Part shown: piece after piece, positions 57,178-61,114 of the stretch
How the letters are laid out: every line of letters starts with the position of its first letter
How positions within the stretch are numbered: position 1 is the stretch's first letter
Assembly: GCA_002840245.1 (NCBI GenBank)
Contig: PHAA01000002.1
Coordinates: 1-64,000 of the forward strand
Length of the DNA stretch: 64,000 nt
Direction of reading: 5' to 3'
From: Firmicutes bacterium HGW-Firmicutes-15
GTDB taxonomy: Bacteria; Bacillota; Syntrophomonadia; Syntrophomonadales; Syntrophomonadaceae
Translations under genes and position numbers: made by a program
Notes under the pieces: model-generated
Told to the model about the DNA's origin: nothing
Seen by the model: the letters and a program-made list of their open reading frames with translations, nothing else
The model's database searches: none

Positions 57178-58542
57178 ATGAATGGTACTCATAAGCTAGC
57201 TGAATTGTTTGATCAAAATCCATATATGGCCGTACTGAGCGTAGATAAAGACGGAAGGGTTCTTTTTATCAACAAAACATATTTACAAGTGCTGGGATTA
57301 AAGAAGGAAGAAGTATTAGGGAGACCAATCATAGCTATAACTCCGCATACCAAGACTGCAAAAGTATTAAGTACAGGCAAAGCAATCACTGCTTATAATT
57401 GGAACATAAACGGGCACCAAATGATTGGCTGTGCGGTGCCGATGTTTAAACAAGATGAAATAGTGGGATGTTTTGCTTACAGCATTTCCTTGAATATTTG
57501 GGATTCAAAGACTTTGGTGGAAAGGCTTTTATCGGAAAACAATATGCTTAAGGATGAGGTGTTTAAATCTCATACTGCGAAATATAATTTTGATGATATT
57601 GTTGGAAATGATAAAAGAATTTTAAGTGCCAAATTATTAGCCCAACAGGTAGCACATCAGGCCGATACCAAGGTTTTAGTTACCGGGGAAAGTGGTACCG
57701 GCAAGGAGCTGTTTGCTCATGCCATACATAATTCTAGTGCGCGCTCCCAAAGTCCGTTCGTTAGGGTTAACTGTGCCGCTATTCCTGAGAATCTACTTGA
57801 AGCAGAGCTTTTTGGATACGAAGATGGAGCTTTCACAGGGGCCAAAAAAGGTGGAAGATTGGGAAAATTTGAACTAGCTAATAATGGCACTATTTTTTTA
57901 GATGAAATAGGTGAAATGCCACTCGCTATGCAGAGTAAGCTGCTTTTGGTTCTACAGGAGCGTGAGATAGAGAGACTGGGCGGAGAAAGCTCAATTAAGT
58001 TGAATGTGCGAGTAATTTCAGCCACCAATCGCAATTTGCAGAACATGGTGGACAAAGGGCTTTTTAGGCAAGATCTTTATTATAGGTTGAATGTGGTACA
58101 GATAGATGTGCCAGCCCTCCGGCATAGAAAAGGAGATATCAGTATATTGGCTGAGTATTTTTTGCGAAAATTGAACCGCCGCTTAATGACTCCCATTAGC
58201 AGCATTTCTGGAGAAGCAATTGATATATTGAATAGGTATACTTGGCCTGGAAACATACGGGAATTAGAAAACGTTATGGAGAGGGCTATGAGTCTAGCTT
58301 CTATGGAAAAAGCGGAGCTGCTTGGCAAGAGGTATTTTACATTTTTGTGTAATAAAATGAATTTTACTTGTCCAGTGGGCACAAAAAGTTTAAAAGTAAT
58401 AACTCAAGAATTTGAAGAGAGCATACTTACACGAATAATGGAAGAAACAGATTTCAATAAAGTTCAAGCTGCTGAGTACCTAGGTATTGACCTGTCTTCG
58501 CTTTACCGCAAACTGAAAAAATATGGAATTGCTGTAAACTAA
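57178..58542 (+). CDS. Sigma-54-dependent transcriptional activator (PAS-AAA+-Fis)
   Basis: 454 residues from ATG 57178 (GAAGGAGG upstream). PAS domain about 8-110 ([20 protein letters not shown]). AAA+ domain about 138-370: Walker A GESGTGKE (170-177), the sigma-54-contacting GAFTGA (217-222), Walker [11 protein letters not shown] (238-247) and arginine-finger region [11 protein letters not shown]-terminal Fis helix-turn-helix about 428-450. There is no receiver domain, so it likely senses a ligand or redox state through PAS. Three sigma-54 promoters with matching palindromes lie on both sides; it is their probable activator. Effector unknown. Confidence 0.93.
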
Positions 58543-58645
58543 TTCTTGCATCATGTTAACCTACCAAAAAACTTTGCCAAAAACCACTACAACTCACACT
58601 TCCATGTATTTAAGCTCTTACTATGGGGTTTAATTTTCAACCCAT

Positions 58646-58680
58646 CTGGCATTCCTGCCAAAACATTGCATTTATGCCAC
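58646..58680. promoter_or_regulatory. Distal enhancer doublet for the sigma-54 promoter at 58807
   Basis: CTGGCATTCCTGCCAA (58646-58661) and ATTGCATTTATGCCAC (58665-58680), each 13 of 16 to TTGGCATTTATGCCAA, starting 19 bp apart as in the other promoters. Confidence 0.6.
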
Positions 58681-58717
58681 GATCAAATCTACCTTTCCTT
58701 CCCCATCTGGTTTTTCT

Positions 58718-58733
58718 ATGGAAATTTTGCCAA
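58718..58733. promoter_or_regulatory. Proximal enhancer site for the sigma-54 promoter at 58807
   Basis: ATGGAAATTTTGCCAA; its TGCCAA half begins at 58728, 79 bp upstream of the -24 TGG. The left half is degenerate (ATGGAA). Confidence 0.55.
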
Positions 58734-58806
58734 AACATCATCCTTCCAGCAGTATCCTACTGATAAATTTCCCCCATTCATCGGCATTTGTATCTTAATA
58801 ATATAC

Positions 58807-58822
58807 TGGCACGGAAGTTGCA
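58807..58822 (+). promoter_or_regulatory. Sigma-54 promoter of the small-gene operon
   Basis: TGGCACGGAAGTTGCA, a perfect match to TGGCAC-N5-TTGCA with GG-N10-GC spacing (58808-58809, 58820-58821). It is 36 bases before the stub gene ATG. The 46 bases from here align without gaps to the acyl-CoA dehydrogenase promoter at 59875. Confidence 0.88.
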
Positions 58823-58857
58823 TTATTAACATGTACAGATAGAAAGGGGGGATGCAA

Positions 58858-59016
58858 ATGGGTTTTGGTTTTACTTATAACAAAGACTTAGTCACCTGGT
58901 ACCAAAAACAAAATAAGCCCAAAAGCAGAAAAGACAATATTATTCGAACCATAGCTGAACGAACATGTTTTAAAAAATTAGATAGCTTGACGAATTCTAT
59001 TCATGCAGCCATGTAA
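58858..59016 (+). CDS. 52-residue protein sharing its start with the acyl-CoA dehydrogenase
   Basis: ATG 58858 follows AAAGGGGGG at 58843-58851. It begins MGFGFTYNKDLVTW; the dehydrogenase at 59972 begins MGFGFNYNEDQLAL. At DNA level 27 of 29 bases match (58859-58887 and 59973-60001), then similarity ends and a basic tail (QKQNKPKSRKDNIIR) continues to TAA 59014. It looks like a duplicated promoter-plus-start segment that captured or decayed into another reading frame. It may be a degraded gene or a real small protein; first gene after a strong sigma-54 promoter. Confidence 0.55.
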   Translation: MGFGFTYNKDLVTWYQKQNKPKSRKDNIIRTIAERTCFKKLDSLTNSIHAAM

Positions 59017-59044
59017 AAAGACTGGCAATTGGAGGTATAACAAA

Positions 59045-59269
59045 ATGGATAATATGCATATCCTTGATCGATTGATAAGCATTAAGAATAATGCCCAAGC
59101 TAGAGCATTGGTAGAATTGAAGGAAAATCCAGAATACAATCAGTACATTGTAAAAGCCGATAATCTGGAGAGCGGAATCAATCAGTTAATAATCGAAATC
59201 CAAAATATTATATTGGCAGAACAAAAGATGAGTTGCCGAAATAATAATTCTACACTATGGATCATTTAG
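59045..59269 (+). CDS. Unknown 74-residue protein in the sigma-54 micro-operon
   Basis: ATG 59045 has GGAGGT eight bases upstream, a strong site. The sequence is helical and charged (ILDRLISIKNNAQARALVEL, NQLIIEIQNIILAEQKM) with a polar tail and a single cysteine. I recognise no family. It lies 28 bases after the stub gene and 75 before the Com-like gene, so all three likely share one mRNA ending at 59630. Confidence 0.6.
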   Translation: MDNMHILDRLISIKNNAQARALVELKENPEYNQYIVKADNLESGINQLIIEIQNIILAEQKMSCRNNNSTLWII

Positions 59270-59344
59270 CCAGCCACCTGCTTTTAGATATACTCACATG
59301 GCAGAGAGAGTCAAATAAATTCAATTCAAAGGAGTGAGCATAAT

Positions 59345-59497
59345 TTGCAGGACTTGCGGTGCAAAAAATGCAATAAACTATTAGGTAAATACTTGGATTG
59401 TAAGCAGTTAGAAATTAAATGTCCCCGGTGCGGGCTAAGCAACTATGTGCGTGAAAACCTATCCTGTACGAGCCGAGAGAAGAGTTGCCCAGTATAA
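59345..59497 (+). CDS. Com-like zinc-ribbon protein (phage Mu Com family)
   Basis: 50 residues, TTG 59345 to TAA 59495-59497, with AAAGGAGTG upstream. CKKC (residues 6-9) and CPRC (26-29) with the spacing RCKKCNKLLGKYL...EIKCPRCG closely follow the Mu Com protein, a zinc-binding translational activator that opens the mom mRNA. Com-like domains also occur as small stand-alone proteins in Firmicutes. No mom-like gene or phage is near. An RNA-binding role in this regulon is a guess. Confidence 0.65.
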   Translation: MQDLRCKKCNKLLGKYLDCKQLEIKCPRCGLSNYVRENLSCTSREKSCPV

Positions 59498-59591
59498 GGC
59501 TAAAGCAGGAATTAAGTGATTGACAGGATGTCTGAAGTTGTCTGCTACCAGCATGGGAGTATGATGGTATGCACCTTGAGACACCTATAAT

Positions 59592-59630
59592 ATTCCCTGG
59601 CACTCATATGAATGCCAGGGAATTATTTTT
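59592..59630 (+). terminator. Terminator of the small-gene operon
   Basis: 11-bp stem ATTCCCTGGCA (59592-59602) with TGCCAGGGAAT (59613-59623), ten-base loop, followed by TATTTTT. Separates the micro-operon from the acyl-CoA dehydrogenase promoter. Confidence 0.85.
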
Positions 59631-59711: not shown

Positions 59712-59746
59712 TTTGCATCTCTGCAAAGGATTAGCATTTTTGTCAT
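59712..59746. promoter_or_regulatory. Distal enhancer doublet for the sigma-54 promoter at 59875
   Basis: TTTGCATCTCTGCAAA (59712-59727) and TTAGCATTTTTGTCAT (59731-59746), degenerate forms of TTGGCA-N4-TGCCAA, again starting exactly 19 bp apart. Confidence 0.5.
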
Positions 59747-59785
59747 CTATTATATACGCATTTACTTCCCAAGTCTGGCTTATTT

Positions 59786-59801
59786 CTGGATAGTTTGCCA
59801 A
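59786..59801. promoter_or_regulatory. Proximal enhancer site for the sigma-54 promoter at 59875
   Basis: CTGGATAGTTTGCCAA; its TGCCAA half begins at 59796, 79 bp upstream of the -24 TGG. Confidence 0.5.
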
Positions 59802-59874
59802 AATCACATCCTTGCTTCAGTTTCTTGCCTACGCTAAACCTCCAATTACCGGCATTTTCAATTCTATTTAACCC

Positions 59875-59890
59875 TGGCATGAAATATGCA
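59875..59890 (+). promoter_or_regulatory. Sigma-54 promoter of the acyl-CoA dehydrogenase gene
   Basis: TGGCATGAAATATGCA with GG-N10-GC spacing (59876-59877, 59888-59889). Leader of about 70 bases to the TTG start at 59972. Confidence 0.82.
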
Positions 59891-59971
59891 ATATGAACTA
59901 ATGGAGATAGAAAGGGGGGACAAGAAAGATTAGGTTAGTATTTTGAATTTTACGATAGGAGGGGATTTTAA

Positions 59972-61114
59972 TTGGGTTTTGGTTTTAATTATAACGAAGA
60001 CCAACTAGCTTTGCAGCGTACAGTAAAGAAATTTGCGGAAAACGAAATAGTTCCGGTCCGGCATGATTATGATGAGTCAGAGGAATTTCCATGGCCAGAA
60101 GTTAAAAAGATGCATGAACTGGGCATTGCTTGTATGAATGCCCCGGAAAAATATAATGGCATGGCTTTTGGTAATGTCAGCCTATGTATGGTAGTGGAGG
60201 AAATCTGCAAAGCTTGCCTGGGAATTGCGATTACCCCTCTGGCTAATATGCTGGCATCTGAGCCGGTTCTTTATGGAGGAAACGAGGAACAGCAAGAGTG
60301 GTGGTATCCAGGTATATGCGACGATGGGCAGATTGCTTCTTATGCGGTAACCGAACCGGGTGCCGGATCGGACGTAGCAGGTCTGTCTACAAATGCTAAA
60401 AAAGATGGGGATTACTATATCCTTAACGGTACTAAATGCTTCATAACGAATGCCCGCCATGCCGACAAATACACGGTCCTGGCTACCCATGATAAGAGTA
60501 AGGGCAGCAGGTCACAGTCATTCTTCATGGTGGATCGTAATACTGAGGGATTATCTATAGGCAAAAGCGAACACAAAATGGGTATGCGCTGTTCGGACAC
60601 TTCGGAGCTAATTTTGGATAATGTCAAAGTGCATAAAAAGTTCAGGTTGGGGGAAGAAGGAGATGGCTTTAAATTGGCGATGAAGGCCTTTAATTCATCC
60701 CGTCCTTTCATTGCAGCGGCTGCGGTAGGAGTAGCAAATGGAGCTTTTGAATTTGCTCGGGATTATGCCAAAGAGAGAAAAGCCTTCGGTAAGCCTATTG
60801 CCAGTTTTCAGGCTATTCAGTTCATGCTTGCTGATATGAAAATGAATATTGAAGCCTCGCGCCTGCTGTATCAAAAAGCTGCCTGGTTATTAGATGAACA
60901 TCTAATGGCAGCAGAACTGTCAGCTATCTGTAAATGCTTTGCTGCAGACATGTGTATGCAGGTCACCACTGACGCGGTCCAAATTTTGGGTGGATATGGA
61001 TTCTGTCGGGATTATCCAGTAGAAAAAATGATGAGAGATTCTAAAATACTACAGATTTTTGAAGGTACATCACAAATTCAGCGAGTGATTATAGCTAAAG
61101 ATATTTTAGGTTAG
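59972..61114 (+). CDS. Acyl-CoA dehydrogenase (short-chain type)
   Basis: 380 residues, standard length. FAD/substrate segments YAVTEPGAGSDVAGLSTNA, FITNARHADKYTV, and KMGMRCSDTSELILDNVKV are present; the catalytic base is Glu364 in QIFEGTSQIQRVI, the position used by short- and medium-chain enzymes. It probably oxidises butyryl-CoA to crotonyl-CoA, the energetically hard step of syntrophic butyrate oxidation; electron-transferring flavoprotein genes are not in the window. TTG 59972 follows AGGAGGGG. It is driven by the sigma-54 promoter at 59875. Confidence 0.93.
   Translation: MGFGFNYNEDQLALQRTVKKFAENEIVPVRHDYDESEEFPWPEVKKMHELGIACMNAPEKYNGMAFGNVSLCMVVEEICKACLGIAITPLANMLASEPVLYGGNEEQQEWWYPGICDDGQIASYAVTEPGAGSDVAGLSTNAKKDGDYYILNGTKCFITNARHADKYTVLATHDKSKGSRSQSFFMVDRNTEGLSIGKSEHKMGMRCSDTSELILDNVKVHKKFRLGEEGDGFKLAMKAFNSSRPFIAAAAVGVANGAFEFARDYAKERKAFGKPIASFQAIQFMLADMKMNIEASRLLYQKAAWLLDEHLMAAELSAICKCFAADMCMQVTTDAVQILGGYGFCRDYPVEKMMRDSKILQIFEGTSQIQRVIIAKDILG

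Follow-up and report, generated by a model that had tools for sequence, protein, structure and literature searches.

Architecture of the small-gene locus

The window analysed here, a stretch of 64,000 nt, belongs to contig C84, from a genome of 3.47 Mb whose closest named relatives at the com gene described below are Syntrophomonas and Syntrophomonadaceae. The features under study are as follows.

57178..58542, + strand: sigma-54 activator with PAS, AAA+ and Fis-type HTH domains (Pfam Sigma54_activat, 237.8 bits; HTH_8; PAS)
58572, 58653 and 58725 (span 58572..58735), + strand: three TTTGCCAAAA-type repeats, presumed activator sites by inferred function
58807..58821 (TGGCACGGAAGTTGC) / 58807..58822 (TGGCACGGAAGTTGCA), + strand: sigma-54 promoter, 10/10 positions matching
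58858..59016, + strand: 52-aa frame, a shortened, diverged copy of the acyl-CoA dehydrogenase 5′ end
59045..59269, + strand: 74-aa protein, member of a narrow lineage-specific family
59282..59502, + strand: block copied from the start of the beta-oxidation operon on contig C9 (com plus ~60 nt upstream), 94% DNA identity to C9:12110-12328
59345..59497, + strand: Com-family zinc ribbon, 50 aa, TTG start (PF10122, Zn_ribbon_Com; PHROG Com families)
59528..59623, + strand: terminator region, 77% identity to C9:5635-5728, the end of the C9 beta-oxidation operon
59715..59920, + strand: second promoter-region copy before the dehydrogenase gene, 68% identity to the region starting at 58649
59972..61114, + strand: acyl-CoA dehydrogenase, TTG start (Acyl-CoA_dh_1, _M and _N domains)

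The activator gene lies directly 5′ of the promoter region of the small genes, and its paralogs within the genus are 49-51% identical. The perfect site at 58807, compared with 0.1 exact matches expected in 64 kb after shuffling, combines a -24/-12 GG-N10-GC arrangement with an adjacent activator gene, as is typical of the sigma-54 class. A first-pass annotation of this DNA had postulated a strong sigma-54 promoter, three small frames with ribosome-binding sites and a terminator, and all of these were recovered: the promoter matches at ten of ten positions (58807-58821), each frame sits behind an SD-like sequence, and a strong hairpin (59592-59623; 16-bp arms, 94% complementary) is followed by a T run. 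An Rfam match to the cyanobacterial RNA NsiR1 over this terminator (59565-59629; 32.9 bits, below the cut-off of 39) was judged a chance hairpin and T-run match. The window com gene has CoA-transferase genes, the activator and the acyl-CoA dehydrogenase as its neighbours. Within the second promoter-region copy lie a further TTTGCCAAAA-type repeat (59793) and a weaker sigma-54-like site (59875-59890; TGGCATGAAATATGCA, 8/10); another such repeat precedes the dehydrogenase gene of a sister genome.

The small-gene cluster appears to be a young patchwork

The 52-aa frame had been taken for a protein that starts like the dehydrogenase. This likeness holds for about 12 residues and is explained by a duplication of the promoter and 5′ gene end (59715-59920; 59961-60001); a reading as a functional protein is not supported. 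At the DNA level, the frame shares 83% identity over 41 nt with the dehydrogenase start (59961-60001) and no likeness beyond; family searches gave no match. By its sequence, the frame is probably a relic.

In the sister genome (G005:C209), an activator, a perfect sigma-54 site and a dehydrogenase (N-terminus MGFGFTYNEDQ) are found with no gene between. Since the perfect site there stands directly before the dehydrogenase gene, the promoter at 58807 is probably the ancestral dehydrogenase promoter. We infer that duplication of this promoter and the 5′ gene end gave two copies, with the 74-aa gene and com captured in the space separating them. The proposed "micro-operon" could not be upheld as one conserved functional unit, given that com and the 74-aa gene stand side by side in no other genome searched and that the sister locus is devoid of the small genes; the three-gene order beside the dehydrogenase, whose conservation had been suggested as a check, is not kept in related genomes. 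The cluster in the window appears to be a young patchwork offshoot carrying a second com copy.

The 74-aa frame probably encodes a genuine small protein that belongs to acyl-CoA operons. Its relatives were detected only at G000:C61, G000:C67 and G010:C14 (49-58% identity; 61 genomes searched, none in the other 59 relatives), and all reside in acyl-CoA/CoA-transferase operons, either closing a run of CoA-transferase, thiolase or dehydrogenase genes or lying inside it. Residues invariant across this small family are retained in the window protein. Assignments to GreA, Snf7 or a phage family were discarded, as they came with weak matches only. The relatives at acyl-CoA operon tails form a family of ~60-74 aa with the consensus MDNIQILERLVSIKNNA...LEKGIEQLIIEIQNSILAE, which matches no known family.

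The 50-aa gene encodes a Com-family zinc ribbon

The third frame had been described as a Com-like zinc ribbon, and its score against PF10122 (35.2 bits, gathering cut-off 22.9) bears this out. PF10122 was matched by 24/24 com homologs (E up to 0.01). Across 24 sequences, the zinc-ligand cysteines C6, C9, C26 and C29, arranged in two CXXC pairs, are invariant, as are R5, L12, L13, L22, K25 and R28. In an AlphaFold model, window Com adopts a four-stranded core, with a mean pLDDT above 90 in residues 1-30, followed by a disordered tail. The window gene and com on C9 differ in six codons (three synonymous, three non-synonymous), so few that selection is barely testable; all three amino-acid changes (residues 34, 47 and 50) lie beyond the ribbon, and the zinc-ribbon core is unchanged. 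On these comparisons, the 50-aa gene is a genuine com, recently duplicated from contig C9.

Several further candidates were considered and set aside. A longer N-terminus is possible in C9 but interrupted by a stop in the window, and the TTG start was retained. A rubredoxin-like identity found no backing, as Foldseek gave no match below E 0.001 and returned generic zinc ribbons only, with the same outcome for a PDB sequence search. The alignment offered too few tree columns for a decision on a single origin of the Syntrophomonad Coms. Neither around the window com nor at C9 did we find the prophage setting and downstream mom of a Mu-type com-mom module.

com precedes butyrate operons in Syntrophomonads

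Among 31 Syntrophomonad com loci, com lies directly before a thiolase-led butyrate operon in 25 and before a CoA-transferase pair in four; two of the 25 (L054, L068) were assigned by reading the sequences, the motif test having missed both. The thiolase-led operons contain thiolase and usually hydroxybutyryl-CoA dehydrogenase, crotonase and acyl-CoA dehydrogenase genes. A sigma-54 site matching at no fewer than nine of ten positions is located within 360 nt upstream of com in 23 of the 31 loci, and the activator encoded upstream at C9 comprises CBS, PAS, AAA and HTH domains. Tandem com pairs, with a box of the kind described below after each com, occur at G027:C13, L094, L095, L096, L099 and G024:C93.

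A conserved RNA element overlaps a terminator

Reading of the com-thiolase gap in all loci revealed an element, GAGAGCC-N2-4-GAGCCCC, beside com. Its layout is GAGAGCC-N2-4-GAGCCCCG, a loop, CGGGGC and a U-tract, with the second half forming the 5′ arm of a terminator hairpin; in the constant string of the com-thiolase gap, the spacer is three nucleotides long (GAGAGCC-n3-GAGCCCCG). Nearly all elements have T-rich tails, i.e. end in the U-tract, and the hairpin has a covariation score of 0.319, as compared to 0.152 for shuffled and at most 0.079 for slid partners. Rfam contained no known RNA family at the element. In several genomes, boxes are also present between the promoter and com.

A covariance model was built from 35 copies of the element and applied with a match threshold of 36 bits. 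Matches of at least 36 bits were obtained in 22/22 com-bearing genomes and 0/39 genomes without com; as the training copies came from com-bearing genomes, presence there is partly by construction, whereas absence elsewhere and the extra sites are not. Applied to 80 com loci of named genomes, the model detected the element in 26/26 Syntrophomonad loci, S. wolfei subsp. methylbutyratica JCM 14075 among them, and in 0/54 others. The strict pattern returned 29 sites in com-bearing genomes, two in the remaining genomes and none with a reversed-pattern control; it is present at the C9 parent and in 25 of the 26 Syntrophomonad com loci. The com loci of Pelotomaculum and Clostridium gasigenes and two others gave no element nearby; by eye, they resemble phage or mobile contexts. 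The window likewise has no Com box (best covariance match 11.5 bits; strict pattern absent). As this genome has no strict-pattern sites other than the two at C9, the C9 operon is the likeliest target of window Com, if the latter is expressed.

After 38 of 60 elements (e.g. L199, L200 and L226), ~10 nt past the U-tract, there is a conserved SD-like [AG]GG[AG]GGTG, for which 0.01 occurrences are expected per 47 nt. From this GGRGGTG it is ~100 nt to the target gene, itself provided with an SD; the string could mark a leader peptide or a second layer of control. An extra box was seen upstream in the com neighbourhood at L060:221, L094:497, L096:303 and L099:287. The gene behind the L060 box contains DITLVAVGDCLMHNT and is CapA-like by eye; G030 (L063) also encodes a protein of this sort upstream of com.

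The element matches the RNA motif selected by a Com zinc finger

SELEX with the zinc finger of a Haemophilus sputorum Com yielded the motif NGAGNNCC(N)2-3GAGNNCCNN, with 5′-CC(N)2-3GAG-3′ as its core (PMC6483171). Our element had been identified before it was compared with this motif. GAGNNCC-N2-4-GAGNNCC fits 58 of the 60 elements, with GCC...GAG being invariant. A count that does not depend on the covariance model gives the SELEX motif a sense-strand enrichment of ~146-fold round Syntrophomonad com genes and ~124-fold round other com genes, with no antisense matches near either. Downstream of com in these other loci, the sense strand contains CC-N2-3-GAG hairpins; stems of three or more pairs are present in 41/79 (10.7 in shuffled sequences), as compared with 9/142 in a control region (7.5 shuffled). 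The enrichment and the hairpins in other com loci argue that the Com box is a family trait, which the Syntrophomonads have fused to a terminator. That Com is linked to the box, we regard as very likely. Mu-like and other proteobacterial com loci (L115-L168) often have a tandem pair of Com-box hairpins close to the com 3′ end, separated by 22 nt and located roughly 105 and 130 nt from where the com match begins; such pairs are a possible general signature for annotating Com targets.

A natural control and boxes remote from com

Genome G009 provides the natural control: its activator is of the same type, its sigma-54 site is perfect and it has a thiolase-crotonase-dehydrogenase operon, but both com and the box are absent. 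Three further box sites lie far from com, all before acyl-CoA operons: in G001, where com neighbours a transporter, a CoA-transferase/thiolase operon on a different contig is headed by a strong box (48.9 bits), and in G027 and G008 a box away from com stands before a CobO/methylmalonyl-CoA mutase operon. These sites in G001, G027 and G008 were outside the covariance training set; the remote element G008:C126 is without a U-tract. The remote boxes argue for an action in trans on acyl-CoA metabolism. Of the originally suggested post-transcriptional or assembly role in the same pathway, the former, tied to acyl-CoA oxidation, is well supported at the C9 parent com and its relatives, outside the window, whereas the latter is not.

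A Com-dependent attenuator as the favoured explanation

Homology, synteny, the element, covariation, co-occurrence and the SELEX match are read directly from the sequences, and we infer Com binding, antitermination and activity of the window copy. Cellular Com, a putative RNA-binding zinc ribbon and a homologue of Mu Com, would govern Syntrophomonadales acyl-CoA operons through a cis element, here termed the Com box attenuator. The activator would turn on the sigma-54 promoter, and the polymerase would make com RNA before reaching the terminator, which has the second half of the Com box as its 5′ arm. Sitting on the CC-N2-3-GAG core, Com would stop the arm from pairing, letting transcription proceed into the genes for thiolase, hydroxybutyryl-CoA dehydrogenase, crotonase and acyl-CoA dehydrogenase; com would thus be an early product that opens its own operon. 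In those genomes with boxes upstream of com, a self-amplifying circuit could arise, and remote boxes would bring other acyl-CoA operons under Com. The window com would be a recent boxless duplicate, set with the 74-aa gene between an activator and its dehydrogenase gene; its product, if made, would act in trans on the two C9 boxes and couple the C9 operon to a second activator.

Antitermination is preferred over translational activation because the conserved element overlaps an intrinsic terminator, and it is the simplest reading since the conserved 5′ arm of that terminator doubles as the 3′ half of the Com box. Such an overlap of protein site and terminator ahead of an operon is, at the sequence level, what characterizes attenuation systems. 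We hold the explanation as a whole, with Com binding the box and blocking termination, to be fairly probable, and antitermination as Com's mode nearly as probable. For the wider scenario, in which a phage-type Com, domesticated in Syntrophomonadales, serves sigma-54-driven syntrophic fatty-acid oxidation as a trans antitermination factor, the RNA element marks its regulon of acyl-CoA operons and the boxless duplicate lets a second sigma-54 activator control the C9 operon, the chances appear evenly balanced.

Several observations count against this explanation. The Com hairpin, well paired in other com loci, is weak in Syntrophomonads, where an A-C mismatch is present in most boxes and no fold forms from just the first 19 nt. 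The terminator stem pairs largely without the presumed Com-contact bases, so that mutual exclusion would be partial, and trans targets are few. The U-tract missing from the remote element G008:C126 also speaks against it, and the model does not account for the conserved SD-like GGRGGTG behind the element. In P. syringae, a stop codon in the com gene before lscB left levan formation and Lsc secretion unaffected (PMC3899960).

Turning to alternatives, the one that survives best concerns the window copy only and is compatible with the mechanism proposed for C9: the cluster may be evolutionary debris without a selected function. Its mosaic origin, its absence from the sister locus, the 52-aa relic and the missing box all fit such an account, which we deem a serious contender, if somewhat short of even; set against it are the perfect promoter, SDs and intact terminator, the changes confined to Com positions 34, 47 and 50 with an unaltered zinc-ribbon core, and the family-invariant residues kept by the 74-aa protein. 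At the operons themselves, Com might instead act on translation, as in Mu, with box binding freeing the ribosome-binding site of the operon and the hairpin being secondary. Mu Com is indeed a translational activator (PMC6483171), the SD-like GGRGGTG follows 38/60 elements, and the CCCC of G008:C126, the remote element without a U-tract, can pair only with that G run. We nevertheless consider this unlikely, given that thiolase has its own SD ~100 nt further downstream, that nearly all elements end in a U-tract and that the covarying helix is the terminator stem. Rather less likely still is a repressor whose binding to the box favours termination and thereby exerts negative feedback on its own operon: com as the first gene, with boxes on either side in several genomes, is the usual autoregulatory layout, yet CC-N2-3-GAG overlaps the 5′ arm of the terminator, so that binding should compete with the stem, and the characterised relative is an activator. 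A zinc ribbon that partners the beta-oxidation enzymes in metal binding or redox chemistry, and does not bind RNA, seems highly improbable despite its constant acyl-CoA enzyme neighbourhood and CXXC pairs such as rubredoxins also use, for the family match is to Com and not to rubredoxin, the gene is accompanied by the exact Com RNA motif, and G009 has the operon without com.

Significance and relation to known systems

Com is a textbook oddity of phage Mu, a translation switch, and the many Com-like genes outside phages have a role that was described as awaiting exploration. In Syntrophomonas-type bacteria that live on fatty acids, Com has apparently been adopted for RNA control of butyrate operons. 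Because this cellular Com can be linked to an RNA element of sharp definition, to the core syntrophic butyrate operon and to an existing SELEX result, its function can be tested directly. If the proposal is true, it adds an extra regulatory layer in bacteria central to methane formation from organic waste.

With Mu Com/mom (PF10122), the Syntrophomonad system has in common a small four-cysteine zinc ribbon encoded by the first gene before the target, a CC-N2-3-GAG target with a bipartite GAGNNCC repeat, and sense-strand boxes near com. It differs in serving a cellular operon of core metabolism and not phage DNA modification, usually from a sigma-54 promoter, in a box that overlaps an intrinsic terminator, in remote trans targets and in having no adjoining prophage genes. 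In Pseudomonas, com-like genes likewise directly precede non-mom genes, namely those for a lectin-like bacteriocin and levansucrase, and their general role is stated to be still unexplored; the accessible parts of these reports describe no common RNA element (PMC6240691, PMC3899960), whereas here an element, a regulon and a natural control were found. CrbR acting on crt-hbd-thl, and Clostridiales sigma-54 regulons more broadly, offer a precedent for activator control of butyryl-CoA genes (consensus TTGGCATNNNNNTTGCT); unlike here, the available portion of that study contains no com gene or RNA layer, nor any Syntroph- name (PMC6615313).

Com, its target motif and Com-like genes before non-phage genes in Pseudomonas were thus already known. 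The box-terminator element, its association with the operon and the regulon appear to be new, having been found neither in Rfam nor in the literature searched, which contained nothing on antitermination by a cellular Com, on a com element in Syntrophomonas or on a control mechanism for the syntrophic butyrate operon. Close parallels in layout are the BglG/LicT-RAT systems, in which a protein-responsive RNA site extends over a terminator ahead of a catabolic operon. In ANTAR antitermination, too, a protein-responsive RNA site lies over a terminator (PMC3369936). Both involve a protein family and an RNA motif unrelated to those described here, and the present system, if confirmed, would add a zinc-ribbon class to the protein-responsive attenuators, one in which Com has no sensory domain, so that induction would come from the sigma-54 activator.
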